A stretch of DNA of 64,000 nucleotides from Hyposmocoma kahamanoa. Taxonomy: Eukaryota > Arthropoda > Insecta > Lepidoptera > Cosmopterigidae. This document shows positions 796 to 62,586 of the stretch, one piece after another; position 1 is the first letter of the stretch; every line of letters begins with the position of its first letter. Position numbers and translations under genes: made by a program. The stretch covers positions 1,337,265 to 1,401,264 of the forward strand of contig NW_020653337.1 in assembly GCF_003589595.1 (NCBI RefSeq), in the 5' to 3' direction. The notes beneath the pieces were generated by a model, which saw nothing but the letters and a program-made list of their open reading frames with translations, was not told the DNA's origin and ran no database searches.

Positions 796-927
796 CTTGA
801 GCTCCACATGTTTTGCGTAGTAGCTAAAGAATCCAAAGTATTTGTACTGTATGACATTGGAGAATTCGCCCACATATATCATGTAAAGCATTGTTGATAT
901 TATTTCCAAAATGCAAGTAAAAACCAC
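796..927 (-). CDS. Exon 37: repeat 4, S6 (GC donor)
   Basis: 44 codons. VVFTCILEIISTMLYMIYVG then EFSNVIQYKYFGFFSYYAKH: S6 with a GEFSNVI-type C-end typical of EAG/CNG relatives. Acceptor TGTGGCAG; the donor reads AAG then GCAAGT, the second GC-AG intron. The in-frame stretch upstream of the acceptor (LNDDYLWQ) resembles repeat 1 NDLERLSN, so the true acceptor may differ. C-linker and CNBD 4 must lie beyond the left edge. Confidence 0.78.
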
Positions 928-2053
928 CTGCCACAAATAGTCATCATTTAATACAGGGAGAAAATTTATATATAAAAACACTAAGTTTTTATATGAATAG
1001 GGTAGGATGATCGACAGTGGACCAGGAGTACACTATGAACCTCTCCTCTTCCCAGTCGACAGCGAGCTAGCGACACAAAGATGTTTTATTTTATTTTTTT
1101 ACCCAAAAATTTAAAAAAAACACGTGAGAAACGCATATTAATAGATATAATAGTTTGGCCATCGATGCACTTTTTATTGTGGTATCTAAAATAAGCAATG
1201 GGTTTTAAATAGGCACGTTGCTACATAGTATGCGGTGGCGCTGAATGAACCACTTTAAAGGTGTACCTACACAATAAATGACAATGACTATGACAACCTA
1301 GTGATAAATTAAACACGATTTTAAAAGCTTGTTATTTTTCAATTATATTTAATATTTCTGTTGGATGCCCAAAAATTTATTGTTTTCAATAATTTAAGCA
1401 AAAACTGCGTTATATTTTTATTTACAATTTTGGTAAAAAAAGAATGTTTTGCTGATGATTGTAATATCATGTCTATTGTGGCATCTTTGGTTCGTTGTGT
1501 GCTAGCCCCCCGGTTCAATGAGTACCATGGGGTGTGCACAATGTACCATTTCTCATTAAAAAAAAACATGTTTTAAGAAAGGACTGACTGTATTTGATTA
1601 AAAATGAAGTACTACTTTAACATACCACTAAAATTATCTATAATTCTAAGCAAAAAGTGTATAATTTAGGTTCATAGATCCGGAGTTACAGCTCCGGTAA
1701 AAAAATTTAGGTGGTTCATTGTAAGCCACCCTACCCTGCGCCGGTCGTGGTCCATCTTTTGTTGAAACATTCCTGTAGCGGATTTCTTTTCTCTTCGACT
1801 TTTATCTGTGCTATCGTAATATTTTACATTCAAATAGGCAAGAATTGTCCATGTCTGCATGGACAAAATGATGGAAGATGTAATGAACAAAAGAGCGTGA
1901 CTAATTTTGAAAACAGGATAAACGACGAATTCGTCACGATAGTGGCCTGTATTATTTTTGAATTGGAAATAGTCAAAAGAGATTACTTTTCACCCACACC
2001 ATCGTAAGTACTGCATATAACAAAGGTTATTTCAACATGCGAACACCACGAGA

Positions 2054-2087
<34 letters not shown>

Positions 2088-5000
2088 AATCATATATTTC
2101 GGAACTGGTCCATAAATTGTTAGTAAATTATAAAATGTTTATGTCTAAGGGTTAGTTGTTTGTACAATACATAAGGACAGCGACACAAAAACAAAACAAC
2201 ATTAATTTTCTATACGACCGCATGTATTATTTAAAAGAAATGTTTACAACTTGTCAGTAGGTACAACTAAAATAATAATGGGACAACCCTACACCCCGAG
2301 CGAAGTATAAACAACTTCACGCTCACCCAATGCGAATTGGTGACTTTACAAGGTATTAACCGATTTCAACGTCCACCACGACACTTTATTTTACCGTTAG
2401 TGCTACTAAACATTATATATTTGTTATGTATAAAATTGAATTGGTACAGGCCGCCACTGAGATACAAACCCGACTTTTGAAAAGCAACCACTTTCCAGCC
2501 CTTAAGTAAAGTAATTCTCAATGTATCTTAAAAAAACGCTAGTGTCATACAATACCTCACTTTGCGTCTTAGGCATTATGTCACCAACGCCATCCTGGCT
2601 GAACGTAGTCAGCGTGAAGTAAAAAGCACAGACATACTTATTTTGACAGGGTGGCTTGCCGGGAGCTGTCAACAAGTAGGTAGCCATTGTACAAACACTA
2701 ATGTCCACTTACACAAAGTTTTGTGCCAATGCTTGCAATGTAACAGCACTCTTAATGCAATATATTAAGAGTGTCTTATCAGTTTAAGCATTGGTTTAAG
2801 AAGTATTTAAATTTAGTGCAAGGTGACATTATATTACTAAATAGAAATTTAATTTTTATGACAATGGACATCAGATTACTGTTACTAAAGAAACTGACGA
2901 CGTAACGTGTAATGATAACAGTGAAATGGCAACACCGTAGACAGGACGAGCAAGTCGTGCACGCCTGTCCATCGCAAAGATCTGAGAGACTGCCACTGCG
3001 CTGTCACCCTGAGACATAAGTTGACAATTCTCGTGTGCCTGTAATTTTATCAGCACCCTTACCCTTCAAAACAGAAATACAGTAAGAGACCACCAACACT
3101 AGTGTCTTTCGAGCGTTAGCGACTTGCCACCACACGCACAACGTCGACACGTGTTTTTACGCGGCGGCGACGGAACGCAGTATCCCTAACGAATTTGTGC
3201 TCGCAACGCCTGTCGACGTTGTGCCCGCTTTGGCAAGACGCTGACCCTCGAAAAAAGAGTGGTGGCAGAAATAGGTAAGGTGGCAGTACTTCCCTGGACA
3301 ACTCTTTCACGGGGACCTCTACTGTTACTGTCATAGATAGGGGCATTCGAGTGTTTGGGCCGAGGAACGTTCACGAACTTACGAATCCCTTTCGTTTTGA
3401 AAGCGGTATTTATTTAGTATTAGGGAGTATTTATCTGATTGGTATAAAAGAGTTACGATATTTCAATCAAATTGGGGATGTCTTTAAAAATACCATGTTA
3501 AAAGTACCAAGAATAAAGGGACATGTAACAGAATGATGCGAGTGGACGAAGTGAAAGTGGTTCGGCAGGAGTGCATGCAAGTGGAGGTTCATAGTCCTGC
3601 CTACACCAATGGCAGACGGGCGTAATTGTATGAATGAATATCAAGTGACGGGACGAACAAGTCGTGAGGCTGGTGGTATGCGACATGACTGTCCATAACA
3701 GTTGCAGTGCAGCTCAGAGTTATAAGTCGCAAAAAATTGAGAGACACTGCTACTGCGCCTGTCACATGATGTATTTTATACGCGTCGCAGAAGCAACCTC
3801 AAGAAATTCCAAGTAGAGTACATAAACTCCAGTAGAGTACATAAGCTTCTAGCATGTAACGTGATGTTTGCGTTTGAATCGACTCATTACAGCGTTGTAA
3901 GTACGTCGTAGTTTTAGTGATGTAAGCATTACTGCGTTCCGGTTTTGAAGGGTGCTGGTGAAATTACAGGCACGTGAGACTTTTCAACTTATGTCTCAGG
4001 GTGACGGGTGCAGTGTACATCTTTGCGATTTAAAGCTCTGAGTACTGCAACTGTTATGGACAGGCATGTCGTTTACCACGAGGTGCACGACTTGTTCGTG
4101 CCAACACTTAGTATCATAAAAAATCTAATTACAATGGCAGTCAACTGCCATTCAATAGAGTGTCGGTGGAATGGTGGCTACCTTATTAGATTAGATGTTG
4201 CCTTACGAAAACACAATCGATACTACCTTTGTTGTCCGTGGTACTACCAGCAGAACTACCAGTAGTTCCACGGGCAATAATAATCCCCCGTGTAACTACA
4301 GACAGGCCTCGTAGTATTATTATGCATACATTAATTTTTATCCCGTTTGTTTAATCATTATTTTAGTATGGTATGGACATGGCATACGGAGGGAAGAATA
4401 TCATGTAACTAGAAGAGTGTTAGGTATGAATGTGGAGGGATATAAGGAGAGAGGAAGGCCAAAGAAAAGATGGATGGATTGTGTGAAAGATGACATGGAT
4501 AAGAAATGTATGAGTATGGAGATGACGGCCGATAGAGGAGCGTGGAAGAAAAATACATCTTCAAATTAATATATACATATATATATATATACACACACAC
4601 GTGACTTCTCTGAGAAGAACGAGCAAGAAACTTTACGGATTGCTCTTTTCAAATAAACTTAAATGCCATAGAATACATTTTGAATCATATATGTGTAGGA
4701 ATCTAGAGTCATGTTGTCTTTATGTAATATGATTTTTCAATTAAAATACTTTTAATGTAAGTTTTAAACTTAGGAAACTGTAATCTTAATACATGCTCCG
4801 GAATCTAATTGTATAAACGTATACAGTACCCCATAAAAGAATCGTTTACCTTAGTTAAACGAAATCGTGGTGTGTACCATGAGTTCGGACTTAGTTGGCA
4901 TTGACGAGCAGAATACCAAACAATTGCAATGGCAGTTAAATAGCAACTCGATGGCTAGCCACTGAGAAGTAGCTTGTCTCTCGACTCTTAACTTTTAGCA

Positions 5001-8000
5001 GAATACTAAACGTACAAAATCCTGTCATTAACACTATCCATCACAACTGAGATAATTTAATATTAGCAGATTTGGGGACTTGGACGATATTTTTCATAAC
5101 CGCTCACGCGATTCATGCGTCTCTGGAAGCATACCACACCTAGAGGTGCCAGTGATGATTTTATACCGATTTATCGGATATCGAAGTTATAACAGGTAAA
5201 AGAACTAATACTAATTGCTATTTCGGTAACTACTCTAGCAAACCATAAAGTTTTTAATGCCTGGGTCAGTCATTAAAAAAAAATAAACAACTTCAAAAAT
5301 ACGTCACGACAATCGTGTGTGTTATTGTTTGGGCTGGTGATGTCGGTGTTTATTTATTGAAAACATACCGTAAGTTGCGTTTTTTAAGTTTACCCTGAAT
5401 ATAAATGTTTATAAACTATACTTTAAGGAGTAATTTCATGGTAAACATTAGAACCACTCAAACGGAATATTATCATATTTACCCAAGTACACCAAAAATT
5501 TCATNNNNNNNNNNNNNNNNNNNNNNNNNNNNNNNNNNNNNNNNNNNNNNNNNNNNNNNNNNNNNNNNNNNNNNNNNNNNNNNNNNNNNNNNNNNNNNNN
5601 NNNNNNNNNNNNNNNNNNNNNNNNNNNNNNNNNNNNNNNNNNNNNNNNNNNNNNNNNNNNNNNNNNNNNNNNNNNNNNNNNNNNNNNNNNNNNNNNNNNN
5701 NNNNNNNNNNNNNNNNNNNNNNNNNNNNNNNNNNNNNNNNNNNNNNNNNNNNNNNNNNNNNNNNNNNNNNNNNNNNNNNNNNNNNNNNNNNNNNNNNNNN
5801 NNNNNNNNNNNNNNNNNNNNNNNNNNNNNNNNNNNNNNNNNNNNNNNNNNNNNNNNNNNNNNNNNNNNNNNNNNNNNNNNNNNNNNNNNNNNNNNNNNNN
5901 NNNNAAACAAATATACGCGATTTAAATCCGGAAAAATAGTTTCATTTCCTACGTGTAACAATCGCGAAAACCTAAGAACTCGATGAGTATAAACATGTTT
6001 GGCCTAAATAAGATAGGCATGCAAAAAATTGATCGTCACATGGCCAAATTAAATTATATAATCAGTATTACATTAACAATGTGCATATTAATAATAATAG
6101 TCACATGTACTTAAATTTATTAAAAATTGTATATAATAATTTTTGAAAAAAATCCCTAACACTTTGATATACTTCATCCCTAGACAATTCATATAATTTC
6201 GTCTTAAATAATTTAATATGCAAGTCTTTAATGTCATTGAGTACTGTATTGTAAATTCTGACACACGTGCACAAACAGTTTTGACTAGGTATATTTTTTA
6301 CCTTTGGTACTTCACAAAGAAGTAATCTGTTAGGATTTCTGTAATTTCCAGGGTTGATCTGAATTTTTAGAAAACAAATGTAAATTATTTTTTACAAGTC
6401 GCAGCGCCACAGACGTGACGTAACAATTAGTGATGCATGACAATACGCGGCTGCCGCGTTACAGTTCCGCCGCTGCAGCGCTTATATAAGCATCTAATTT
6501 TAAGGCATCCTAAAATTCTATTATACTTACGATTCGAAATATCCGATTGAGTCTAAGGAAAGAGAATGCTTCCCAGTGATACTGTTTCTCGAAAAGGATG
6601 CAAAATAACTCAAAAGGGAGACAAGACAAGATATCGTATTTGAATATTCCTTTGTAGTAGCTGCAAAAGTCAAATTATGAATATTTACAACTTTTTTATT
6701 TTAAAAAAACCGACTTTTGCTTATCGGCTTTTTTATTGGAATTACATCTTTTTTATATTTTTATCGAATTGATATTCAATTATTTTTTGTGAAATTACTC
6801 CACTAGTTTGTTATAATTATTAATACAAAGATCGAATACTCAGAAAAAATTCCTTCGATCCGGCCGGATTCGAACCGACGTCTTCTGGCATACCGTGCCA
6901 GATGCTATACCAACTAAGCCACGGAAAGAACCAGCGGACCTCACGAATTTTTCTATGTGCTTGTTGTCGTGTTTTTGTTTTTGGTTTTTCAACGACGTTT
7001 TAGTCGCAGCGTCATCTATGAGAAATCTATGAGAAATTCGCGAGGTCCGCTGGTTCGTTCCGTGGCTTAGTTGGTATAGCGTCTGGCACGGTATGCAAGA
7101 AGACGTCGGTTCGAATCCGACCGGATCGAAGGAATTTTTTGTGAGTGTTCGATCTTTGTATTAATAATTATTATATCTTTTTGCCAAGTTTTATTTATAT
7201 TGGTTAACGGAAAGTATGCGACACCGGATTCAGCCCCTAGTTTGCTTCCCTTATAGGTACGGACGTACCCTCTTTCCAAGAAAAAAAATCAGCAAAATCA
7301 GTTTCCAAATGCCTAAGGAATCGAGTAACATACGTAAAAAAATAGTCTTTCTTTTTGAAGTCGGTTAAAAAATTTAAAATTTATTTACACACATTTTATT
7401 GTTTCTCAAGAACTACAATTTGGAGCTTTTAAACATTCAAACTCAAATAACCTTTCATAGGTAAGCAAATTACACATTGAAATCGTCACATAGAATAAAC
7501 TCTACTATTCATTCACAGGGTAGTTCCACTGAGAATAAATATTACCAAACTGTAGGGGTTGCTCTTTGTAAAAACACACCCCAACCCTCCTAAACCGGAA
7601 AGCAGTAATGCTCACATTACTGCTTCGCGGCAGAAATAGGTAAGGTGGCAGTACTTCCCTGGACGAACGCTTTCACAAGGAACTCTACTGCTACTTAGCA
7701 CTATTACTATACTCTGTCTACTTTATATTAAAAAATAAGTATTTCTTCTTCTTTTTATCGTGTCGATTATTGACTTACAAATAAATGGACGACGGGTCTA
7801 ATACAAAAACGATGAAAAAAATGTCCCAGGTCAACCTATTTAAACGTAGTGACATGTAAAGGAATATGAAAAAGCTAAAACGTTGAATTCAAATTGTAAT
7901 GTCATCGCAGTACTGTCTAATTTTGCTTGCTTCGCTGTCAGAAGAAACAAACGAAGACTAAAGCGTGAATGACGCTCTGTATACGATTTTAACGCCCTAT

Positions 8001-11000
8001 AAATTCGGACACTTTTTAGCGCGGACCCGACGTCCATATAATTGTAAGTCAATGGTGTCGATACTTCCTTCACTTTACGACTAAATTGACTTAGAAGAAT
8101 ACATAAAACATTCGATGTTAATTGAAATACCCTTCAGGGTCTCACAATTCATTATACGCTTCTATATAATAAGATTCCGATTGACATTCAAAATTTGCCA
8201 TTTACGAGATTCAAAACTAAAGTGAAACAAAAACATCTTAAGTACTAAAGCCGTTTAGCTCTTTCAGGTATTCTCGATGTAAAATGTTTAAATTAAATAT
8301 TGTAATGATAAATGCATTGAAATGTATATTTACAAAGAGCAAGCCCTAGAGTTTCTTCTTCATTCTTCTCAGGGGAATCTGCCTTGCGAATGAGCAGTAG
8401 AGTGATTCTAATGTAATTGACTCAGAGCTGGTTAAAACTTATAGGTATTGCAATATTTGACATTGACATGCACTCACATTTTCCTTTGTGTCAGCAATTT
8501 TAATTTAATTTCTTTGCCGAAATTGGCATTCGCCATAAAAACATTTACAGCGACCTTGAAATAGAAGAGCATGTCAAGGATATAGAGAGTGATGAGTATT
8601 TGTATGGCGTTGTCCTGAAAAGCGGCATTGTACGTGTCCAGATAGATGCAACACAGTGATATGCCGACCACATAAATTTTCATGAACGTGGAGCGCGTAT
8701 CGAGGAACTTGATTGCGCCCTTGCGGGTCGCAATTAGAATTGCGGAGCTGAACGTATGGTCTTTCCACACGGACATGTCTTTTGTAGAATCCTTTTGACG
8801 GCCTATGATGTAGTTCTGGAAATTTCATAAGAAACATCATTTCGTACACTAAGGGTCGTATACCAGAACTCTACTCAATACTCAAGTCAGGACTTGAGTA
8901 TTGCAGTGAGCACTGAAAATCATACTCAAGTCCTTGCCATTAGAGTCGTATTTCCCGTGCTTGAAATCATACTCAAGTCTGCTCAAGTCCTGACTTGAGC
9001 CTTTAAGAGTTCTGGAATACTTATTTTATTTTATTATATTTGGGGAGCGTACAGCTACTTTTACAATATAGATTTAAGCTAATCGTGGCGTTTTGTTGCA
9101 TTTGTTGTATCTGTGTCTGTTTGGAAACAGGATACCGCGAAAGCTACAGAATTTGGTTCGTGGATTTTTTGTTGCATTGTTGGGTCTGCCTCGACACTGC
9201 CGTGCGTCGAGGATGTTCGCATCGGCACGCGTTGACTGTTTTTACGCAAAAATGCGTAAAAGATGTGCCTCACTAGTGCATAGGGTGAGGGGCAGCACCA
9301 ACAGTATCTTAAAATTGATTTCCAACAGGCTTGACTGCCCTTACATCAATCGCTGCTCTGCGTTTTCCAATGGCATCGCAGAGCGGCGAGTGAATGTTTT
9401 GGAATACAAAACTAACATAGTTATAAGTGTGAGTATCTAACCAATTATGGATTCAAATTATCTGAAATAAATTATTATTATTATTTATTATGAACGTAAA
9501 CGATTACATTTTTGTTTTCTCAATCGAAGTGAAAAGTAAAGTTTTCATCTCAAGACTAAAACCCAATAAAACCCTCGGAGTACTAGACACCTTCGCTACA
9601 GCTCGGGTGGCTAACCGCCTCGGGTGTACATTGGCTCATTTTAGTTCTTTTATAAAAATATACTATTATCACGTGAAAGTGTTAAAAATAATACGACCTT
9701 CATGAAATAAGTTCTATGAAATAAGTATCTAAGCGTAAAAAAGTTATCCATAAATTTCGTTAGTAGTAAACCTTTCTCCTGAAAAGATGTCATTTTGTAG
9801 ACGAAACTTTTTAACAAGTCTGGATTCTGCGAAACTAGATCAAACCCCTGTAAGTGGTTTTTTAGATATTATTCACATTCCGTTTTATTAATTATTAGAT
9901 TCAGGCGTTACTATCAGAAAGCCCATGTAAATTAACATGGAAGTATATTAATTTTCACCACACTAGCTCGGAGAGGCTTTCTCATTAGAAATCTGCGTGC
10001 AAAAGCTAAGCTAGCGCGGAAAAGGTTTTTGAAGTTCGAACTTGACGATGGCCTTTGTCTTTTACAATGGAAAAGACAGTACCAAAAAAGAAAAAAAAAC
10101 ATAATGACACGTTCAACTACGCGATTTGTTACGCAAGTTATTGTTTACATTAAATTGACAACGATAACTGTTCAACTGTTTTTCTTTCATCTACCATTTT
10201 CCTCGCTATAGTGAGGTGAAAAGTTGTGTGTTTCACTCGGCAGCAAGGTTGTTTTGCGTCTCGTGTCTGGAGACCCTCGCTACGCTCAGGAATAACTTTG
10301 CAGCTTGCGTAACAAATAACTCCGCGAAACCGCTGAAGGTTAAATAGTGTTAAGATCCTGCGCTTGCATTGAATATGTTTTCATGCACGTAGTTTTCCCA
10401 CCCTCCCTCCACATAAATATAAATAACACAAGCGCGATTACAGTCGCAGCCGTGGTAGTCTACTATTTGACCTACCGCCTCTTATCACTCGCGGGTTCGA
10501 ATCCGGGCTTGTACATCTAGTTTTTAAGAATTTATGTATCAAATTTAATTTGAAATTCACTATGAGTTTTGGTCTCTCGCAAAAACCTTTCTCATTGTAG
10601 GAGGACTGTGTCCAGGAGTAAGATAATATTTAATAACTATTTATTCCTTAAAATAAGATATTAATCCGTTTTTCTTATACAGTGCAAATATAATTCTAGT
10701 GACACAGACTAGCGGCTTTTAAATATTCTATCCAGCGACATTTGCCATATAATGTTGGCAACACTGAACTTGATTATATTAAAAAGAAAAAGAAAAAAAA
10801 AAAGGATTCACTCTGGACCTTTTGGAGGGTAAAGTGTCGTTTTTATTTTGAGTTTCAATTATTTTGTGAAATCTAGTTTAAAGTGGAATAGGATAGTGCT
10901 ATTGTGCCTTAATCGAAGATTAAAACGCGAAATTATACGAATCTCGAACTAAAATACCCGTATCGGCCCGTTCTAAGGAATCCCGAGTCAATCCAAGCAC

Positions 11001-14000
11001 GCCGCCTCAAATTACCTATCCTCTTTGTGGCGGCCATATTTACAGAAAAACTTATTTTTATGTTTTCGGCTGAAGGACTTTGTTTCCATGGCCAGATATA
11101 AATTAATAAAAAAAAATATATATTATAAAAGAAACAAAGCAAAAAATAACAAAAAGGTGACTCACCTGTCCGTGCGTGAGGTACGACTCCAAGTTCTTTT
11201 TTGTGATAGGAAACTCGAAAATTATCCGGTAGAATATTTCAGTTCTGATTAGGAGTAAATGGACTTTGTTGTTCGTTATGAATGTGTTCTGACTCCGAAA
11301 TGTCGAATGGTTCGCCAGGTTGCCGAATATACTGACAATGTACAATACGGGTGACTAAGTAATATTGTCTATACATACAGGCATATTTAGCTGAATACAG
11401 GTACCTACATGATTGAGTGAAGAAAAATGTTAATACATTTCTCACAAGTGGCGACCAAAAGAGCCATTAAAGTCAAATACAAAAATCTGTAACCAACGTT
11501 TAGAGAAATTTGTAAGATCTGCTGACTCGACCTGTAGTTCAGTTGGTAAAGCGATTGCCCTTGATTGGCTTACAGAACAGGAAGTCCTGTTAGATCGACT
11601 TTTTGTTGCATTCAGTTACGGAACTTTGTTTGAAGAAAAATATTCATAGATTTCTCACAGGTGGCGCAACGGCAAAAAATTCGTTATTAAAAACCAGGAA
11701 GAAAGATCTGCTACAAATACATAAAAAAATTCGTGAGGTCCGTTGGTTCGTTCTGTGGTTTAGTTGGCGTAGTGTCTGTCACGGTTTGCTAGGAGATGTG
11801 TGTTCGAATCCGGCCGGATCGAAGGAATTTTTTCTGAGTATTCGATCTTCTTCTTCGATCTTTGTTTAATAATTTTATCAAATTAGTGTAGTAACTTTAA
11901 AAAAAATAATTTAATATTATGGTGATAAAACATTCTAACATTCAATAAAACTTAATTATAATATTTAATACTTAATGTTTGTTTCGAAAGTTTTGTCGCT
12001 TATTTTTTTATTTTAATCTGAAAAGTTTGCCGACTGTAATTTTTTTCGCTCATTTTTTTTAATTTCCTACTAATACAAGTTTGTCGAGTAGTTCGAAGTT
12101 GATTTTATTGCGTTCTTGTAAACGTTGGATGGAGTCAAGTGGATCAAGCTAATCTGTTTTCATGTAACATAAATTAGTCTTCTTTTGCACTTTTTGTACA
12201 CAAATGAAGTAGAGTTCTCTATTGTTAATAAAATTAAGATGAAAATGGTATAGTTATTACCTCCCACGTGGCAACTTTGCTATAGGGGTAGTATCATCGT
12301 TTGGGTTCTTGACCTCGACGGTGCCGTAATCGACAAAGTACATAACTTCTATTACGTCATCATGTTCAATGAGGCGCGTCTCAGCCAAGAAGTAGACACT
12401 ATGCATGGCTCGACCCATTAATCGCAGCAACGCCAGGCTGCACTGATTCAGGACTGGGCACTGTGAACATATAATTTTTATTTACTTTTTTACAATCAGG
12501 TTACATGGACCCACAAATACTTAAGAGGAGGTAGTTTAAAGGGTTACGTTAACTTTGAGCGAAATTAAATTCAGTAAGATAATCAATATTAGTTACGATC
12601 TTGACAGTAATTGACTAAGTATTTAATGGAATTTTGTAACATGAAAGCGTTACAAACAAGATCACAGTTGGAAAATTAACTAAACCGTACCCAAAAACCG
12701 CTTTGACCGAGGGCGTGCCTAAAGCGTTACTAGGTTCTAGGCAAAAACGGACACTTAAAGTCCTGCGGAAAATAATAACTGTAGAAGGTGATAACATTAA
12801 ATGCAATGCGAAATGTAATAAATTTTAATTTGAGTACCTAGTTATCAACAAGAATACAAAAACATCAACAAAACACATAAAACAACATATCCCGTTAATT
12901 GATATCATAAAAGAAAAAAACTCTATGGTCGAAATTTTGGCCTAGTGGAAAAAATTCTCAGTCCGTACGCACCTTGTTAAATGTCGGTCCATAGATGTTC
13001 ATAATAGCGTCAGTGCGCAACGTGATCTGATCGCAGAGCTTGAACATGCTACTGTAGTCAATGCCGCCCATTTTATCCCAGCTGTACGTATAATAATCGA
13101 TCACCTCCCTGAAGTAGGGAATATTAAACTTAGCTACGAATTCTTTGTTGCAATTATATTGACTTTGATACTTCGTCGGGCGCAGGACATTTGCGCCAGA
13201 GCAATTGTGTTTGCGCCAGAGCAAATGTTTTTTTGCCGTAGCCATCTGTGAGAAATCTATGAAAGTATTCTACGTGTGGCGCACTATAAGGTTTCGGAAT
13301 TAATATGAAATAAATACTATAAATGGTCAGAAATGAATTTATTGTTTCTCAAAATATTCTTCGTTAGCGTTAATGCACTTTTTTATACGAATGAACCAAT
13401 TTTGAAAACATTTATGCCATTCCTCCGTGACAATCTCAGAAACATATTTATTTCATATTCTTCGACAGCCTCTTCAGGTGATGAAAATCGTTGACCGCGT
13501 AACTGGTTCTTAATTTTTGAAAATAAATAAAAGGCACAACGAGGCAGGTCGGGACTGTATGCGGGATGGCTCATAAGGTCAACGTTATTCACCTTTAAAA
13601 ATTCATTTGTCTTCCTTGGCGCTGTGTAAACTGACATTATCGTGGTGCAAGATGATACGGCATTTACGGTTATTTTTACGGAGTTTTGTCAATAACTTCC
13701 GGCAAACAAATGGTCGTGTATCAATCATTCATCACGAGGCACTATTCACGGTACAACGATTCTCCAAAGCAACAGTAGCCAGGTGTCCAGTTTTATTAAA
13801 GAAAGAAGCAATCATCCGCTTAGAGGCACTTTGCACGCGTGCCACTTTGGTTGGTTTCGGCTCATCTCGAAAGACCCATACGCTCGATTGCTGCTTAGTT
13901 TTGGGATCGAAACAATAAATCCATGTTTCGTCACCTGTTACTATATCCCACACCAAATTTGACGCCCGTTCTGTTCGTTCTTTCTTCAATCCGTTTTTTG

Positions 14001-47000: not shown

Positions 47001-50000
47001 CGCTTACAATTGGTAGGGCTAGTATGATACGGGTGCGACTTGTGTGAGAGCGGCATAAAGCCAGAGATTATAATAATATCTCCTAACTCCCATAGATTAT
47101 AATAATATCTCGCTATTACTATGCCGCTCTCGCGCAAGTCGCGCTGTATCGTGCTGGGCCTACAGGCCCATGACTTATAAGTTTAACACTTAAAAACACC
47201 TGTCTAATTCGAAGTCAAATAATCATTTATTCCATAGGTAAAATTTTTACACTTGAAAACGTCATTTTTAAGCTACTGCTCGTTCACTACGCTGACCTCC
47301 CTGAGAAGAACGAGCAAGAAACTTAGGGATTGCTCTTTTCAAATAAACGTAAATGCTATAGAATACATTTTGAATCATATTTGTGTGGAATCTATACTCA
47401 CGTTGTCTTTCCATACATCTTTATCTAACACGTAGTCTACAATTTTGTAATATGACTTTTCAATTAAAATACTTTTGATGTAAGTTTTAAACTTAGGAAA
47501 TGGTAATCTTAATATAGAATTTTATTGTAAAAACGTATACAGTTCCTCCTAAAAGAATCGTTTGCCTTAGTTAAACGAAAACGTGGTACCATGAGTTTGG
47601 ACTTCGTTCTAAGGTTAATATTATGGATATCTTCTTTCTTAACGAAATTATGTATATTTTTACGGACAAATAAAATATTTGAGTAAATGTACTGTGATGC
47701 CACAGTCATGATACCAGTCTCCTTAAACTTTTCTCTAAGAAAAATACGAGAACCTAAACAGTACACAGAACTAGTCTATCTAGAACAGTCTATAACTCAT
47801 AGATAGCATAAATGAAATTACCTGAAAGGAAGAGGATACGATGAACGCTTGACGGTTACTTCTGCCGAACTTAGCAATCACTTTCCACAAATCTGAAGCA
47901 CTGAGCACGTGCGCCGTGCAAAATGTGGCAGCTCGAATCTCAACATGCGATTTGGCGCATCCTGCCGGAGGGCACCCGCCGCAGCCGTTCAGGATCGTGC
48001 CGCGGGAAAAGCGCAACATGGGTGTTGTGTCGTCTTCAGCCGACATCATCTGCAATGCTCCATTGTTTCGCATTATTTTGTTTATTACATAGCAGTAAAA
48101 ATAGAACAATGGAAGATTTCAGGAAATCAAACCTAAATTCAAAATATTTATTTAATGATGCACACAAGGAGCCTCCTCGAAATAACGTATTAATTGATTC
48201 GCCGTACATCTGGCGCACCCTCGGCAAATATCGGCGAATAGATTATGCTGATCGGCAAATCTTTTCATAACTATGACAAACATGTCCCATGCATGCGTCA
48301 TGCAGTTCAGCATGACGGCGACTAGTGACGTCAACATGGCTAATTTCTGGACCGCGATAATATAGTATAAGCCATCGATGCGATAAGAAGAAGAATCGGT
48401 ACACAAATTGCACTTGAATACACCGAACTGGTACAACACTACTTGCTTACTCATTTAATAGACAGATTTCTCTGGGACGAATAAATAAGAAACTCTCGTA
48501 AATAGGTATTCATTCACATTTATCAATATCACAATATTTATTTAAAATCTAAGACAGATACAAACTGAAAGAGCTAAACTGAAAGCTCTTACAGATTTGT
48601 ATGAAGCATCTTGAAGCGACCTGTGGCCCACATTGTGACGTAAATTGGATTAGGATAGATCATAATTATGCACCCGACTCGACAAAGGCAGGCAACGCTT
48701 GTTTGGCCGTCGACGCGGCTTTTGGTATGTATGGTGACTTCCTAAGACTAACTAAAGAGAATTGTGCTATATATACTCTTCGCCACCACTACATGGACGT
48801 TTGTTTCTACAAAATAGTATCTTTTAATCGCTTTACTATATTGGGACATGTTTAGAAAGAGAGAAACAAAAGGCCGGTAGAGTTATAGCTTTCGTTCTCA
48901 TATGCATAAAGTGGAAATTAATCACAGAAGCAAATAGTGAGTTTGCGCCTTACCTCGACGTCTCCGTATGAAATGTAGATTATTGATGATTTGTTGGACT
49001 TGCGCTTGATTATTGAATCTCCAGGAATGTAATTGATAGTAGTCATCATCTTCGATATTTCTGATAGGAATTGATTCGACAAATCCCGGAGAATAAGACT
49101 CTGTAGATTTATTATTTTTCTATTATTTTCTTTTTCATAGTTAAAATAAGTGCACATTTGATTCCATTTCACCGGATGAGTAGTGACAATGAGACACCTG
49201 TATAATGCCTATTCACTATCGCCTTGGAAAGCTCCAAGTTATAGCGTCCAGGGAACTTGCCTGCAGGCACTGAATTCTTCTCATAGCCGTACGCCGTGTA
49301 AATGTAGAAGCAAACTCTTAGTATGAATCCTAAGAATATCCATAACATAGAAGTGGATAATCTAATGGCGTTCAATGTCAGTGCTATCTAACTTAGCAAT
49401 CTCGCTGCTCCCTCCACACATTGTCAAGAGCAAAGGAGACATTATGAACATATTCAGCTACGCCGCACTACGTGTTTTTGGTGCTTATAACACCTCCAAA
49501 ATTGGTATAGACTATTTTATCCAACGTGTGGAACAGCGCCAAACTTGACGAAGAAAGTAAGGAACAAGAAATATGTGAGTCGGCGAGTAAGATCATTCCT
49601 CTTTAAAGGATATCTGAATCTGAAGAGACCGGAGATTAAATTCTGTTCCTGACGAGTGATAAAGCTAGTCACGTCATAAGGAACAATAGGTACAAATTAC
49701 TCCAGCTTATTATCGAAGGCAAAAGCACTGGAAAACAAAGTGTTGGTAGAAGGCGGCACTCCTGGTTAAAAAAATTGAGGGAATGGTTCGGCTGCAATAC
49801 CACCTCGCTCTTTAGGGCGGCAGCCACTAAAGTATTGCCAGGATGACGTCTAATCTCCGTTAGGAGAGGAACCCCAAGAAGAAGAAGGAGATAAAACTAA
49901 ACAATAAGAGAGATAAAAAAAACTTTTGTAACTATAGTGAAAAAATAGGTTGGTTTGCATTAATATTAGACATAACTGGTTGATGACTGTACCACCTTTT

Positions 50001-53000
50001 TTTTTACGTGGGGATATCCTCATGGATATCTCTCTGCTGCGGGGGCAACAGAGAGATCATGTCGGACTCCTACCGACTAAAACCCCACGGTGTTCCGTCC
50101 CTGCACCTTTTGCCGGGACTACGGGAACGCTTTCGCACTCTTCCGCGGTGCACCCGCGGACCCTCGGGCAGAGGGTCCTTCCCATTGAGGTAGAGCTGGA
50201 GAGACACCACCCCATTCATCACTTACAGGGGCACGCAGGAACACCGCGCCCGCCACCTCGGGGTCTGTACATCGCGGGCCGCGAGCACCGCGAAAACCCC
50301 TGTTATGGGGGTTGAAGGAGGGCGTGATAGTGTCTCCTCCGACGCCCTGCTCTCCTGCGGTGGATTGGAAGAAGGGTGGTGGCCTCCCTCTCCCGCTTCG
50401 CAGCTTCCTTCTGCGACATTACGCGTTCGCAGAAGGATACTACCTCCATCCACGACCTGTCACTTTCCAGCATTGATTTGATCATTGCTGGGAGTGACAG
50501 GTCGTACCCCACTGCGGCAACCAGTTCATGGCGCTCATTGGCCCAGTCTGGGCACACCTTTTGCGTGTGCTGTGCTGTGTCTTCACAGCAGCCACAATGG
50601 TGACATTCGGTTGTCGGTTCCCTCCGGGCTATATGACACAGGTACTTTCCGAAGCAACCATGCCCGGAAAGCACCTGCACCAGCCGGAAAGTCAAGGAGG
50701 AGACCCCGCTAACAAGCACGCCGCTTCATAGGATATGGTGCGATATCCTCTGATAGCCCCGACCGCCATCACCCTCTGAGATTTCCTCAGGAGTGCGATA
50801 TTTTTCGCTATAAGGACGTCAGACCATACGGGAGCCCCATATAGAGCCATCGAGCGCACCACTCTCGTGTACAGGCGACGGCTGCTCGCTTTAGGCCCTC
50901 CGAGGTTGGGCAACAGCCGCTTTAAAGCAGCAGCCGTTCCCATTAAACGAGGGATCATGCGAGTAAAGTGCTCGCGAAAGTTCCATCGAGAGTCGAGGAC
51001 GAGACCAAGATACTTCATCGTGGGCTCGACTCCGATGCGAGTCTCACCGATAGTGATATGAGAACTCCGTGGCGGCGCCCGCCGAGGGCCATGAAAGCAC
51101 ACTTCGACTTGTTAAGCGCCACCCGGAGTCCCAACATCTCTACTCTACCGACAACCTGTGCCACCGCCTCCGTGGCAAGACGAGCAGCGTCCGCGAAGGT
51201 CTGATCTCGTACCATCACCAACGTATCATCTGCGTAGCAGATCACGCTGGCGCCCAGAGGGAGATCTCCCCGTAACACCCAATCGAATCCGATGTTCCAC
51301 AGGAGCGGTCCTAGCACCGACCCCTGCGGGACCCCGCACGACATTACCGTTTTGCAACAACCGCCCCTCCCGCCCAATGACTGTACCACCTCAGTCAACC
51401 GTGACCATGGGACCTGTAAAGGGGCCAAAACATTGGTTTGTTTGAAAAATCAAGTATACGCGATTTAAATTCGGAAAAATAGTTTCATTTCCTTATTATT
51501 TTTAAATTTGCGTTTTTAGATGTTTATTAGTTAATGACATTGAAATGACTGGACAAATATGAAAGAAAACCTATTGGACATGGTTCATAATCATGATTCA
51601 CACCTGTCCAAAATGAACACTTTTTTGGACCACGCATTTGGGTAATATTAAATAACAATCGGCGAGAACCTTTACGCCGTTTGGCCAATCTTTTCACCAC
51701 TAAAGTGATACCATAAGTAGATCTAGATTAGTACTTAAGTAGCTTTAAGACGACTAAAATCGCGGCTATGTGCTAATATTACATATTTTGTACAAAAACT
51801 CTAAACTTCTCACCCTTTGTTGAGCCTCAAAATAAATTTCTGAATAAATGAGGTTGTGTATTGTAGGCGGAAAGGTAGTCATAAGTATCGAACCGGAGAC
51901 ACCTCGTTGCTTGAGCCAGTACATTCTGTAGAATGTCTCTACTTTATTTCGTAGTGCTTTTGGAATTTGCGTGTCGACCTGATTGTCATAAAAACAGAAG
52001 AAGGGATTGGGCAATAAAAAACTATACTATATAACATGTAACAGTGGGCCATCTCTCAAACAGAATGCAGAAGACCCATCAAACAACAGCAGTCTATATT
52101 TGAATATAAAAATTTAAGATGATGTATAGCTAAATACGTTAGTTGTTGAAACACAACGTCCCGCTTTGGTACACAACGTGCCTAAAATTTGTAGCAGTAC
52201 AGCATAATTGGGAGAATACCTGCTTCTCATGCCAGGAAGTCATACCGTGGGCTGTAACATTTTAGGAATTATCAGTGTAGGTAAACACAGTAAGTGCAAC
52301 CTGCATGTTGGAAAGGGCGCAATACTTCAAATACATGTGTAGTTCCAATGTAGCTCAAACTTTAAGATCTGTCCAAAGTTCAAAATGTCAAGCTTGATAT
52401 ACTCTTGGCTGTATTGGTGTGGTGAACCTTGGTATTCAGTACAAGGCTCTGCTATCCTTGTACTGAATAGTATGGATTCATTGGGTAGTACAAGTATGTT
52501 TTCAAGCAGTTAATATAAAATAAGTTTTACAGAAAAAAAACCATAATCCTGAAAAGAAATTATTAGACGCTTACCATATCCTGAACGATCAGCTTCAACC
52601 GATCGCGATAAGATTCTTCATTCTGCAAGAACACGGAAAGAACGATAGACATGGAAGCGACCGCTACACCGGTTACTATCAGAGTACCGGTGATCGTAAT
52701 TACAATGTTGCTTAATCTCTCTAGATCGTTGAAAGGCACCACCTCCGGACTGAAACCAAGTGAAAAAAAAACCTTTGACATTTGGATTCTGGAAATCGAC
52801 AAGTTACAACGATGAAGCACTTGCAATATCTTTGGGTATTTGTAAAGCCTTTGACGGTGTCTGACACGCAAGCCTTTTAAGTTAGCTTCCCTCTTATGGG
52901 CTTCCCACTGACCTTTGCAATTGGATCTCGGATTTCTTTAGCGAACGTTCGATTTGAGTGGTCTTAGAAGACTACTCTTCCGAACATATGGCGATAGATT

Positions 53001-56000
53001 CTTCAGGGTTCCGTACTGTCTGCGACTCTCTTTCTATTGCACATCAATGATGTGTCAATTCCAGATACCTTTGCGTGTGCTGATGACAACACAGTTATAG
53101 ATAATTACTTGACAAATGCAAGGGTCAATGGAGCGGAAATCCAGTCTTATTGAGTGTCCATAGTTAGCCGTTTGGATTTGACACTCAAGGTCCGACTGGG
53201 GCGATGCCAATTTTGTCAAATTTAACGCTACCAAAACGCAGGCGTGTCTATTCTCCACAAATGTAGTCCCTTTGAGGTGACTCCGACTTTTCGTGATATA
53301 TCTATTCCGATAGCCTCCAGCTCGGTGTGGACCTGCCGTCCAATTTGTACTTTGGCAGATACATTGAATCTATGGCCAAACATGCAGCCAAGAAGCTTGG
53401 GATCCTTTCCAGAGTGAGGCGTTACTTTACACCGGGACAGCTGCTTCAGCTGTAAAGCACAAGTCCGGTCGTGCATGGAGTACTGCTGCCACCTTAAGCG
53501 ACCAGTTACTCGAGAAGAAAGGTTTCGCGCGGCCGCCGCGCGGCGATCGCCCAGTTATCACATCTTCATGTACATTAATGGCGAATCCGAATTCTATTTA
53601 TTATGCAACATTTAAATTCCTCTCAATAAAATTAGTGCGCGGCCGCCACCGCGTAGACCAAATTCAAGCCAGGCTAGCCCGCGTGGCCGGAACGCTCATT
53701 TAAATTAAAACGTAAATATGCTAAACAAATAGGGTGGATTTTGCCATGACAGTTAAGGTGTGTCCAAACATAAAGCGGCATTCGAGCGCGGCTGCCGCAC
53801 GCGTCTTGCCGCGCTATGATTGGACGACTGCCGCGCGCGGCAGCCGCGAGCTACCTGCCGGCAAACTTGTGTCCCGCGAATGCCGCGCGTAGCTGCCGCG
53901 CACCGTGCACGCCGTGTTTGGACACACCTTTAGACGCTCGCGGTCGCTGCGCGGCAGCAACGCGGACTCCGCGCGGGGTGAGTGCGACGAAATACGTGTC
54001 GAATAAACGCGGCCTTAGGAATGCTCTGCACCTTAGATTCAATTGACAACCGTGTCAAGAAGCTTATAGATGATTCGGAATTAGTGGAGGTGAAGCTGCA
54101 GAGCCTTGAATACCGCCGTAACGTTGCCAGCTTATCAGTATTTTACAAGATGTATCACGGAGAGTGTGCAATGGAATTACACGATTTAATTCCGCTTTCC
54201 CCTTTCCATCGCCGAGGGACTGGGCGTAGTAACGTTATAACTTGGGTCTTTTCAAGGCGATCACGCACACATCGTCGACCTCGTCATCATTTACCATCAA
54301 AAAAAAATAAGTTTTATCTTATATAAGTCATTTTCTGGTGTCGCCATTTTCACATAAACAATACGGAAGCGTACGCGTGTGTACGATCGGAGCGCCTGAT
54401 CGAATTGAACGGCGCGCCGATCGCATTTGGCGGCGCAAGGAAAACGCGCCGGCGCGGCGCTCATATCTACTGTACAGCCTGGTTTACTTTGCAAAGTTGA
54501 TATAATAAGCGATTTAAAAAAAAGTATATATAGCATGTAGTTTTTCTACGACCGTTATTTAATAGTAAATACGTAAACTACTTGGTCTAGCAAAATAGTT
54601 TTTCCCGCCTGTGACTCGGCTTAACTTTTCACAAAGGAAAAATATTACCGTCCTTCCTAATTAGGGTTGGCAGTAACCATGAAGGTGATGACAATTCGAA
54701 TTTATCAAGACGCACTTACCCAATAGAGCTGAACGATTTGTCAACAAGGTACAGGCACCATATAAAAGGATGCTGTTTGTATTCTTGCATACTGTCTTTG
54801 TAAGTTTTAATATCTTTTACGTGCCCTATTAAATCAAATGCCAGTTCCAACTGTAAATAAATAGGCAAATTAGCGTACGTTACAGAATGGACTAATAACA
54901 AAGGACTGCCAATCTCCGCTATATTATAGCTAGTAACTCTGAAAAAGGTCAAAATTCCGTCTTACGTCTAGATGGCGCTGAATGGCCGTGAAAACCAATT
55001 AATTCCTCTTTGATATGAAATATAAGAAGTTGGTTATTTTTTCCTTGTAATATTATTAATAATAATTATTATTATTTATTTATTTAAGATCATTGATCCA
55101 CTTTGTTAGTAACAATCAAAAACTTAGGACCATGTTAGTAAATTACACTAAAATTAAATAATTAAAATACAAAAACACTTAAAAATAAATAATACAAATT
55201 TACAATAGGTACGCGTAATTAGAATTCATGTCACCAGCCCTTCTTGGTGACATGAATTCTGGTCCAGTGGCACAGTATCGGACACGCTACATCCTCCGAT
55301 ATGGTGTTCAGAAGGCTGTTACCGCTGCCACGCATCCTGCTCATGGTCGACGAAATGCGTTTCGGAACTACTGCGTCAAAACCGTCGGTACGCGCTTCCG
55401 CAAACATGCCGGACGCACTACAGAACGGGGGCAGCCGCAACAGCATTCTGAAGGTGTTATTATACTGGACCTTCAGGCCATTGAAGGATTTCTGCGTATA
55501 ATTAACCCACAGGCGGCAGGTGTACAGTGTCTGGCAGTAGGCCTTAAAAAGAGTTAATTTGACCTCGTTCGTACACCGTGCAAACCTGCGAGCTAACATA
55601 TTGCACCTTACCGTCAATGCCCTGCGCTCCCTATCCAGCTCTAAGTTATCTGTGAGCGCATCGGTCACCCAGTGATCCAGGTATTTAAACTATTATTCAA
55701 ATAGTGATTTTGCTAAAATTGTTCATTCTGAACCTTGTCAAATATGCGTGTCAATAGATGACATAGTTTGTAACAAACTAATTTATAAACAGTCGCTTCC
55801 TAATACGGGTAGATGGAGCTGTGTTAAATTACAGCTTGTCAAAGTAAAACAAACTAGTCCATGGTTCCAAATAAATAACATTCTGAAAAATATTATACCA
55901 CACCCTAAACACTCTATACAACGGTAGAAGCTTATTTACCCACTACTACGTACAGCAAGACGTTGTAAGCACTTACGCAAATGTGTGCCTGACGTGGTAG

Positions 56001-59000
56001 GGTTACCCATCACTTTATTGTACTATTTTATTATCTGGTTTAACGTAAACAGTGACTTTGTAAAAGCAAACGAATGTATGTAAATAATATGATCATTAGG
56101 AATTATTTTATTTATTAAATACTAAGCCAGCAGTAAATTAAACACACCAGTTAAATTAAAGTCAAATAAGCAGCTTTAACAAAAGACTTAACATAAAAAG
56201 TCAATAACAGTACTGTAAATTACTTACACTATAATATTTTCTTTTAAATATCTTATCGGTAAATAAGCTCATATGAAATCGCAAAGTACGTCAATAAATA
56301 GACTTAAACTGTTTCAACTTCAAAGTCGTCCTTAGCGAACGGCTCACTGACAGCCTTGTTGCCGTTCCGTCAATGTGACCGTCAATATGAGGGACGCGGT
56401 GTGGTATTTAAAGCTAGGGAGGGGCGGACCTTTGTCATTGCCTTTTTATTCTCTGCTTCTTACTTAACTCCTTTCGTTTTTCTTACCTTAATTAACTGAA
56501 TCAGGAGAAGCGCAAAAGTGACGCGCGTTAGACAACATATGTACATATATTTAAATGCCGTCCCAATCACACTGCCAGCTAAGATGTCGTTTAGAAACAC
56601 TGTAATCATTTGTACATTTTCAGATCAGAGTTGTATAAACCATAATTCTGAAACGAACCTAGTTTTTTCGTGACCACGAGACTTGTAAAAGGCCGAAATT
56701 TTAGTTGTAAAAAAATTAACATGAATTTCAATACGAAGAAAAATAATCGAGAAACTTAAGAACTCTTCGATCGAGTGAAACTCATTACTCACATAGAAAC
56801 TTTAAGGGATGATGTAGACGCACGTAGTAGCATATAGTCTTTACATCCCGGACGACTTTCATATCGGTTATGCCATGTTGCATGTGTAAGAAGAAAATTA
56901 TATAATGACAGAACGACAAAAAATCCATCAAGTAGCCAACTGCAAAATGTCATCAATATCAAAAACCCGTCAAGAGCGATTGTGATTCAAACACAATAGA
57001 TGTTTAGGAAATGAAACTATTTTTCCGGATTTAAATCGCGTATATTTGTTTTTTCAAACAAGCCGGCGTTTCGGGCCCTTTACAGGTCCCATGGTCACGG
57101 TTGACTGATGTGGTACAGTCTTCAACCAGTTATGTCTATAATGCAAACCACCCTATTTTATCACTATAGTTACAATAGTTATTAATTAAATACATTATTT
57201 TTAATTTTACAAAGAAAACATTCTAATTTACGCTATATTAAGTTTTACAAATTATTTTATTGAATGAATTTTTATAAAGTTCAATTTATTATTAATTATT
57301 AATAGAAAAAAAAAAATAGAATTATTTGGTTTGTTTGAAAAAACAAATATATACGCGACTTAAATCCGGAAAAATAGTTTCATTTCCTATGTGTAACAAT
57401 CGCGAAAACTTAAGAACACAATAGATGTACTATGTAACCATGTAACTTTCATAGTTTTCTCACAGGTGGCTACGGCAAAAACGCCGTTTAAACCCCAAAA
57501 AGACGATAAAGATCGGCAACAAGCATATAGATAAACATGGACTTACAATTATATGGACGTCGGGTCCGCGCTAAAAAGTGTCCGAACTTATAGGGCGTTA
57601 AAATCGTATACAGAGCGTCATTCACGCTTTAGTCTTCGTTTGTTCGACTGACAGCGAAGCAAGCAAAATTAGACAGTACTGCGATGACATTACAATTTAA
57701 ATTCAACGTTTTAGCTTTTTCATATTCCTTTAAATGTCGCTACGTTTAAATAGGTTGACTTGGGACATTTTTTTCGTGGTTTTTGTATTAGACCCGTCGT
57801 CCATTTATTTGTAAGTGAATGTAGATAAATTAGTAATAAGGCTATGATTATTATGGATGCGAATTCTGACGAATGCGTCCGAACAAACAAACGCCTGATT
57901 TTCAATAAGTGTTTACACTGACAGCGGCGAACACGCACATGCGCGATATCATCAGAACTAACTAGTTCTATGCTGGGATAACCATGCTGGAGCTAGTATT
58001 GCCTCTGTGACCGAACGGGTCTGCCACGCACAGGTCTCGGGTTCGATTTCCGAACTGGGCGAAATATTTGTATGGCCTACACCTATTTCTCTCGTGAGTT
58101 TGGGTGTAATTTTTTGGTTGTTATGTGTGTATCTATGGCACCTGTAAAACATGGTTTCCTTAGTGCAGGGCTATGAGTGTGTAGATTTTTTAGTGAGTAG
58201 GCTATTTCACCATTGATAATAAATCGATAAGTCTTGTGAACGAAAACAGATGTTTTTGGGTTATTTATGACAGACAAAAATTATCATGACAGACATATTT
58301 CTCGGCAAAAGTGCGAAAACACTAGCAGTAAGTACAATTTTGTACGTATTTGTTTTGATGTGAGGTTTACATGAATTACGTAAGCAATAAAATTAATGTT
58401 TACATTTTATCATTACATCATATAGCAAAAGACGCGCGCAGTTTAACCGCCTTGTTCTGACGAGGATTCCGAACATACTCATCCGAACACATTTTCGTCG
58501 GTATTCGGATGCATAGTAAATTTATCTTAAGTTCTGCTGATTGATCCCGTAGCTCAGTTCATAAGTTGGAAGAGCAGTTAGCCCCGGCCTGACAAACAGT
58601 CGCTGGATCGTATCTAGGCATCCGCCTACGAAGACATTTTTCCGTGTTTCTTTGATCTATGTCTCAATAATAACACCAAACTAGTGGAGTATTTTCAATT
58701 ATGTGAATGTCATGGTACTAAAAACTTCATGATATTCAATATAATAAATATTACAGATATTGTAATCCAACTTACATTTCCTGCAACCAGTCCACTTAAC
58801 ACCGGTTGTAAAATCGTGATAGGCAAGTCCCGTAGCGTGTATAAAGTAAATCACATTGAAAACAATGTCGAAGACTCTTGCAAAAAATGGTATCTCAAAC
58901 CAACCAGAACTCATGTCGTACGCAACCATTATGATGGCCAACAGACACATGATGCAGATGAAACTGTTCCACTTAGTGTTTTCAGCAATCCCGTGGAACC

Positions 59001-62499: not shown

Positions 62500-62586
62500 A
62501 TGTCCATGTCATACTCTCGGGCTAGCCGGCTCGCTAGTTTAAACCACAAGGAATTCGACTTCCAGTTCTTTGTGTACCAACAAGAG
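62500..62586 (+). CDS. Paralog exon 1: N-terminus
   Basis: 29 residues, MSMSYSRASR ... FVYQQE, then GTAAGC. Starts at the ATG equivalent to that at 61274; 22 of 29 residues identical. Confidence 0.86.

Follow-up and report, generated by a model that had tools for sequence, protein, structure and literature searches.

The closest described systems to the locus reported here are the CNGK (or tetraKCNG) channels, known from sea-urchin and zebrafish sperm, in which a single chain of about 2,000 amino acids carries four 6TM-CNBD repeats. A GYG or GFG filter for K+ is a CNGK feature (PMC4749565). The sea-urchin channel is opened by cGMP at its third CNBD, and the zebrafish channel is pH-gated and not gated by cyclic nucleotides, yet its CNBDs are called canonical (PMC4749565). 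In the parts of the two sources that we draw upon, these channels are reported from choanoflagellates, fish and invertebrates including sea urchins, cnidarians and sponges, with no insect named (PMC4749565, PMC7576140), and they are treated as a separate clade (PMC7576140).

We analysed 64,000 nucleotides (the window, meaning this whole stretch; positions 1337265-1401264) of a 19,169,019-base contig, C140, in the 728-Mb genome of the lepidopteran Hyposmocoma kahamanoa (Gelechioidea, Cosmopterigidae). Its minus strand holds a gene, gene A, which we consider, with reasonable but not high confidence, to encode one long membrane protein descended from CNGK, whose four repeats would form a pseudo-tetrameric cation pore with altered K+ selectivity and nucleotide sensing.

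Spliced alignment to a profile of lepidopteran homologues gave 36 accepted exons within the window, all on the minus strand and running from the start Met at 61274 down to 796. They encode the first three repeats and most of the fourth as 6TM/C-linker/CNBD units of one polypeptide. The exon count, single orientation and outer coordinates given in a preliminary description of this DNA were reproduced, as was its order of three full S1-S6/C-linker/CNBD repeats followed by most of a fourth, the rest of which lies just outside the window. The alignment scored 4559, about 56 points of which came from three small spurious exons still contained in that model; the same aligner and profile gave 104 on the opposite (plus) strand, and 100, 89 and 95 on three dinucleotide shuffles. 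Exons 1-34 read through in one frame without any stop, where the two alternative frames have 106 and 79, but the splice-aware dynamic programme disallows stops and frameshifts inside exons, so that the open frame is partly built in and the controls are the real test. The accepted exons, with the best site for the one exon that is missing, are:

61188..61274, minus strand: exon 1, start Met and N-terminus; same length as exon 1 of gene B
58776..59043, minus strand: exon 2, repeat 1 S1-S2
56793..56939, minus strand: exon 3, repeat 1 S3-S4
56487..56599, minus strand: exon 4, repeat 1 S4-S5
54720..54850, minus strand: exon 5, repeat 1 turret, pore helix and filter start (SSIG)
52575..52749, minus strand: exon 6, repeat 1 filter end (PEVVP) and S6
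51814..51978, minus strand: exon 7, repeat 1 C-linker
48954..49100, minus strand: exon 8, repeat 1 CNBD, first half
47822..48049, minus strand: exon 9, repeat 1 CNBD, second half, with degenerate phosphate-binding cassette
46514..46569, minus strand: exon 10, repeat 1 C-helix region; 56-nt exon also present in gene B and contig C2216
45673..45805, minus strand: exon 11, linker preceding repeat 2
45208..45345, minus strand: exon 12, repeat 2 S1
44713..44842, minus strand: exon 13, repeat 2 S2
43994..44139, minus strand: exon 14, repeat 2 S3-S4
43255..43391, minus strand: exon 15, repeat 2 S5
42813..42943, minus strand: exon 16, repeat 2 pore helix and filter start, without GYG
40218..40356, minus strand: exon 17, repeat 2 filter end (MHKTANW) and S6
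37543..37660, minus strand: exon 18, repeat 2 C-linker
34801..34917, minus strand: exon 19, repeat 2 C-linker
33712..33843, minus strand: exon 20, repeat 2 CNBD, first half
30962..31040, minus strand: exon 21, repeat 2 CNBD, FGV in place of FGE
30740..30870, minus strand: exon 22, repeat 2 CNBD end, without the binding Arg
25946..26094, minus strand: exon 23, linker between repeats 2 and 3
22736..22918, minus strand: exon 24, repeat 3 S1
21887..22050, minus strand: exon 25, repeat 3 S2-S3
20091..20223, minus strand: exon 26, repeat 3 S4
18817..18977, minus strand: exon 27, repeat 3 S5
16632..16778, minus strand: exon 28, repeat 3 pore, filter TCTGFN
14935..15076, minus strand: exon 29, repeat 3 S6 and C-linker start
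12973..13108, minus strand: exon 30, repeat 3 C-linker
12261..12460, minus strand: exon 31, repeat 3 CNBD, first half
11166..11331, minus strand: exon 32, repeat 3 CNBD end, FGN in place of FGE
8478..8815, minus strand: exon 33, repeat 4 S1-S2
6531..6660, minus strand: exon 34, repeat 4 S3-S4
5505..5904, no strand: 400-N run, best site for the missing exon 35 (repeat 4 S5)
2556..2665, minus strand: exon 36, repeat 4 pore, filter SQDGVGD
796..927, minus strand: exon 37, repeat 4 S6, GC donor; the gene continues outside the window

Three of these boundaries are corrections of the raw alignment: the end of exon 34 was moved to 6531 (ATC, then GTAAGT), the start of exon 36 to 2665, and the end of exon 37 to 796, where a GC donor (GCAAGT) was adopted in place of a donor at 808; this is also where the preliminary description ended. 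The three spurious exons (5139-5101, 3688-3605 and 3481-3457) had taken the place of the unseen repeat 4 S5 exon and were dropped. The exon for S3-S4 of repeat 1 was skipped by our first lepidopteran profile and recovered by one of lower occupancy.

Introns of gene A contain reverse-transcriptase-like open stretches at 51449-50306 and 42167-41110 (both minus strand; YADD and FGDD by eye) and, within repeat 3, Mariner-like transposase fragments at 14004-13383 (minus strand, by eye). An open stretch at 29004-29510 on the plus strand has a GIY-YIG-like motif, again by eye, and is perhaps a Penelope-type element.

Beyond the window edge, four further exons complete repeat 4; in window coordinates they run from -746 to about -2483, and they bring the gene to 40 of 41 expected exons with no stop up to the last CNBD. 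About 45 codons past that domain, near -2598, the frame meets a stop. Between -2483 and about -4100 other frames carry long acidic, serine-rich open stretches that, by eye, somewhat resemble the 800-residue tail of gene B, a neighbouring copy; a frame change or small introns at this 3' end are possible. The exon that is missing encodes S5 of repeat 4. Its counterpart is 181 nt long in both gene B and gene C, a third copy; given the corrected boundaries (6531 for the donor of exon 34, 2665 for the start of exon 36), an exon of that size keeps the frame. The S5 peptides of both copies found no match better than E 1.3 in positions 2600-6600 of the window, and the 400-N gap at 5505-5904 can explain why the exon is not seen.

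The homologues were gathered with 28 channel-like cores chosen from minus-strand open reading frames of at least 28 amino acids, 25 of them in the window and three in the adjoining locus. The joined cores retrieved 30 proteins at E <=1e-3, all 30 lepidopteran by name and most of them uncharacterized. The query still held a by-eye guess for the S4 core of repeat 1, at 55942, that profile alignment later replaced; the PDB sequence search described below used the same query. One could suspect that adjacent genes with one or two repeats each, or an error of assembly, were misread as one gene, and the assembly does contain gaps. However, 25 of the 30 homologues measure 1,681-2,330 amino acids, the two that we examined (P0001 and P0006) are collinear with the exons of gene A across repeats, the joins stay in frame across the repeat borders, and exon sizes are mostly equal in copies B and C, all of which makes such a misreading hardly credible and upholds the earlier view of one gene.

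That description included neither of the other copies. Gene C lies beyond the window; gene B lies head to head with gene A and starts at 62500 on the plus strand:

61275..62499, no strand: 1,225-base interval between the start codons of the divergently oriented genes A and B
62500..62586, plus strand: gene B exon 1, start Met
63012..63270, plus strand: gene B exon 2, repeat 1 S1-S2
63344..63487, plus strand: gene B exon 3, repeat 1 S3-S4
63564..63682, plus strand: gene B exon 4, repeat 1 S4-S5; the gene continues past the window

The interval between the two genes could act as a promoter region common to both. Gene B corresponds to the annotated H. kahamanoa locus LOC113232650 (protein P0038), with 93.6, 99.7 and 100% identity to our model in three compared stretches; the database model has some 170 extra residues in repeat 4 that are absent from ours and appear by eye to be repeat-derived. 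Its C-terminal tail exceeds 800 residues. Gene C lies tail to tail with gene B at about 1500277-1542529 of C140 (minus strand). An unplaced contig, C2216 (9,500 of its 18,412 bases examined), matches the repeat 1-2 part absent from gene C and ends within the S3-S4 exon of repeat 2, and the C140 part starts at the very next exon, S5; from this we infer that the two form one gene. Some candidate exons of gene B next to long runs of N, and a candidate first exon of gene C, proved spurious and were dropped.

In a tree of the copies, A and B are sisters (99), joined by C (100) and then by Pectinophora (100), so the duplications that gave A, B and C postdate the split from Pectinophora. Separate Spodoptera paralogues also appear in this tree. 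The Spodoptera exigua proteins P0010, P0021 and P0036 comprise two diverged paralogues, P0021 and P0036 coming from contigs of equal length, and noctuids may have tandem copies too. Between genes A and B, pN is 0.228 and pS 0.747 (saturated) over 1163 aligned codons of 23 exon pairs, which shows purifying selection on both genes across their divergence. This bears on whether gene A might be a decaying pseudogene beside functional copies B and C, as one could suspect from the unseen S5 exon, from the stop soon past the last CNBD and from the lack of any gene A product among the hits of two protein searches (whose candidates were limited by length and shared words; a partial database annotation could exist). 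Yet pN falls far below the saturated pS, the 40 exons are stop-free up to the last CNBD (with an aligner that forbids frameshifts), only one of the 41 expected is unseen, and the gap can account for that one; decay is very improbable.

Where does this gene belong? A bait search found CNGK-like four-repeat proteins in echinoderms, a hemichordate, amphioxus, fish, cnidarians, a sponge, a nemertean, an annelid and tardigrades, with no named arthropod among the best 120 of 1,267 matches (many rows being nameless). Models for each CNGK repeat were built on 55 repeats of 14 four-repeat proteins, including an unnamed eukprot protein (P0042); these were taken from 16 scanned non-lepidopteran proteins, excluding a tardigrade one with a filter in three repeats (P0069) and a diatom one (P0060), and Nematostella contributed no repeat 1 because its match begins past the filter. 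Against these models, repeat 2 of gene A scored 183 bits with CNGK repeat 2 (next best 126), repeat 3 scored 208 with CNGK repeat 3 (next 162) and repeat 4 scored 185 with CNGK repeat 4 (next 153). KCNH, CNG and HCN models reached at most 76 bits, the CNG and HCN ones covering pore to CNBD only and resting on two sequences and one. In 12 of 12 other lepidopteran proteins repeats 2, 3 and 4 likewise scored best with the same-numbered CNGK repeat, although by only 0.3 bits for the short repeat 4 piece of P0023. In the gap-ridden P0038, counted apart, all four repeats agree, with margins of 0.3 bits for repeat 1 and 1.7 for repeat 2.

The tree tells the same story for these three repeats. With 77 repeats (P0052 and P0056 also left out), SH-aLRT support for joining lepidopteran and CNGK repeats was 86 for repeat 2 (99 without P0042), 99 for repeat 3 and 90 for repeat 4, and without the KCNH, CNG and HCN outgroups the repeats grouped almost perfectly, with 8 changes against a minimum of 7. 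Repeat 1 behaved otherwise. Its best score was marginal (107.4 bits for CNGK repeat 1 versus 104.8 for repeat 4; repeat 1 was marginally best in gene B too), and among the 12 other proteins CNGK repeat 1 was best in nine and repeat 4 in three (P0003, P0010 and P0014). In the free tree it stood beside KCNH, CNG and HCN, its branch, 3.19 long, being marked by the program as a possible long-branch false join; constraining it to CNGK repeat 1 gave a tree 4.26 log units better (p-AU 0.6), which is no proof of that grouping. A whole-genome search with the Pfam Ion_trans profile gave no match inside the window, and the Pfam CNBD profile exceeded its cut-off in repeats 2, 3 and 4 of gene A and not in repeat 1 (E 0.055). 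The result that the preliminary description had named as refuting, a tree with the repeats in separate families, was not obtained for repeats 2-4; for repeat 1 it may still hold. That repeats 2-4 are positional orthologues of CNGK repeats 2-4 is well supported by these comparisons, on which repeat 1 is too diverged to place. With four repeats, three of them grouping with CNGK, gene A does not belong to the single-repeat KCNH, CNG or HCN families.

The suggestion of a lepidopteran branch fits our searches: besides the 30 of 30 proteins mentioned above, repeat 4 of the Galleria homologue retrieved 38 hits, of which 37, the query included, are lepidopteran by name and one is a fish protein, both searches requiring shared five-residue words and hence having little reach into other insect orders.

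In its filters gene A departs from CNGK. We compared 42 lepidopteran rows, namely genes A and C together with 40 proteins from databases, which include gene B and some paralogues or near-copies, leaving rows without the stretch uncounted. GYG or GFG was present in 53 of the 55 CNGK repeats sampled, whereas lepidopteran repeats 1 to 4 had it in 0/33, 0/36, 13/36 and 0/37 rows; the GxG pattern used to find filters biases the counts towards GxG. Four other signatures take its place: IGP in repeat 1 (28/33 rows), a His in repeat 2 (36/36), TG[YF] in repeat 3 (36/36) and G[VIC]G[DE] in repeat 4 (36/37, the remaining row being misaligned). The drift of the repeat 1 filter is partly non-lepidopteran, since the two CNGK exceptions are tardigrade repeats 1 that already read GLG. 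In gene A none of the four filters is GYG or GFG, repeats 1 and 2 having no such signature and repeats 3 and 4 reading GFN and GVG, and because of this an asymmetric pore that is not K+-selective appears the most likely outcome, one we regard as probable. The GYG of repeat 3 in 13 of 36 lepidopteran rows leaves room for some K+ preference. Nav, Cav and NALCN channels, which belong to another family and have no CNBD, also build a single-chain pore from four unlike filter quarters.

Altered filters together with degenerate CNBD pockets, in a protein whose fold and remaining sequence are constrained, could also mean that the protein no longer conducts and is retained for a job outside the pore, as a channel-shaped scaffold, a chaperone or a voltage- or ligand-coupled partner. 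But the altered filters are themselves strongly conserved, the His of repeat 2 without exception and the repeat 4 motif in all rows but one, and a dead pore need not be; we judge this explanation rather unlikely, and prefer a conducting channel of changed selectivity.

Few of the nucleotide-pocket motifs are left. The FGE of the phosphate cassette occurs in 0/37, 0/35, 0/38 and 5/32 rows of lepidopteran repeats 1 to 4; repeats 1, 2 and 4 gave no match to the canonical Arg pattern, and in repeat 3 the Arg is shifted by one place or replaced (by eye), so that FGE and Arg were found together in none of the four CNBDs. As the pocket Glu is gone from repeats 1-3 of gene A and the Arg from repeats 1, 2 and 4 (repeat 3 being judged by eye), its CNBDs most likely constitute a ligand-free gating ring and are probably not cGMP sensors. 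There are precedents in the pH-gated zebrafish CNGK and in KCNH channels, whose C-linker and CNBD work without nucleotide gating, in the account we rely on (PMC7576140). Motif loss is no proof of lost nucleotide binding, because motif and function part ways in the zebrafish channel.

Could gene A then still encode a functional K+-selective, cyclic-nucleotide-gated CNGK like that of sea-urchin sperm, merely diverged? Its descent, the TG[YF] and partial GYG of repeat 3, the G[VIC]G[DE] of repeat 4 and the database name of the Danaus orthologue ('tetrameric potassium-selective cyclic nucleotide gated channel') all point that way; yet with no GYG or GFG in any row of repeats 1, 2 and 4, no FGE in repeats 1-3 and the Arg lost or displaced, we find it quite unlikely. 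The CNGK/tetraKCNG label of the preliminary description thus holds for the lineage, strongly diverged, as profiles and tree agree for repeats 2-4, but cannot mean K+-selective or cyclic-nucleotide gated, because the K+ filter and most nucleotide-pocket residues have been lost. Gene A is a CNGK-derived variant that need not be K+-selective or cGMP-gated.

Structural comparison was made through a relative, the Ostrinia homologue P0024, whose AlphaFold model (39 rows) covers repeats 1-2 and the start of repeat 3 with moderate confidence (mean pLDDT 68.6, pTM 0.60). From its helix list, repeats 1 and 2 are each predicted to have six long helices, a pore helix, C-linker helices and a CNBD beta-roll. 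The best PDB matches, a list that gives no repeat assignment, were CNGA3 and CNGA1/2, followed by AKT1, GORK, HCN and SKOR (TM to target about 0.5-0.8). CNGA and CNGB channels nonetheless have one repeat per chain, and the TIGE filter of CNGA is unlike all four lepidopteran signatures. In the PDB sequence search with the joined cores the best hits were KCNH (EAG/ERG) channels, in the repeat 4 part; KCNH also has one repeat per chain, and its models score far below CNGK on gene A.

The four 6TM/C-linker/CNBD repeats would then fold together into a single-chain cation channel, each supplying one quarter of the pore. Family knowledge and the loss of motifs suggest that the unlike filters would change ion selectivity and that the degenerate CNBDs would make gating blind to nucleotides. 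As a tentative scenario, which we hold possible but would not bet on, an ancestral CNGK of the sampled moths and butterflies acquired four unlike conserved filters (IGP/H/TGY/GVGD) and nucleotide-blind CNBDs, and with them a new selectivity, and was later multiplied in some moths. Regarding where the gene is used, known CNGKs make sperm or testis the likeliest guess, albeit a doubtful one. Three papers on lepidopteran sperm gave no sign of the gene in a term search of their main texts, and among the top matches in an open-licence library we found nothing on a lepidopteran or insect CNGK or tetraKCNG, on the LOC numbers of the orthologues or on presence in a sperm proteome.

A lepidopteran branch with a rebuilt pore would be a natural experiment in how an asymmetric, single-chain pore leaves the GYG filter, an old question for Nav and Cav channels. 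If gene A and its orthologues are indeed sperm channels, they may also offer a lead to the control of sperm in moths and butterflies, which make two sperm types.
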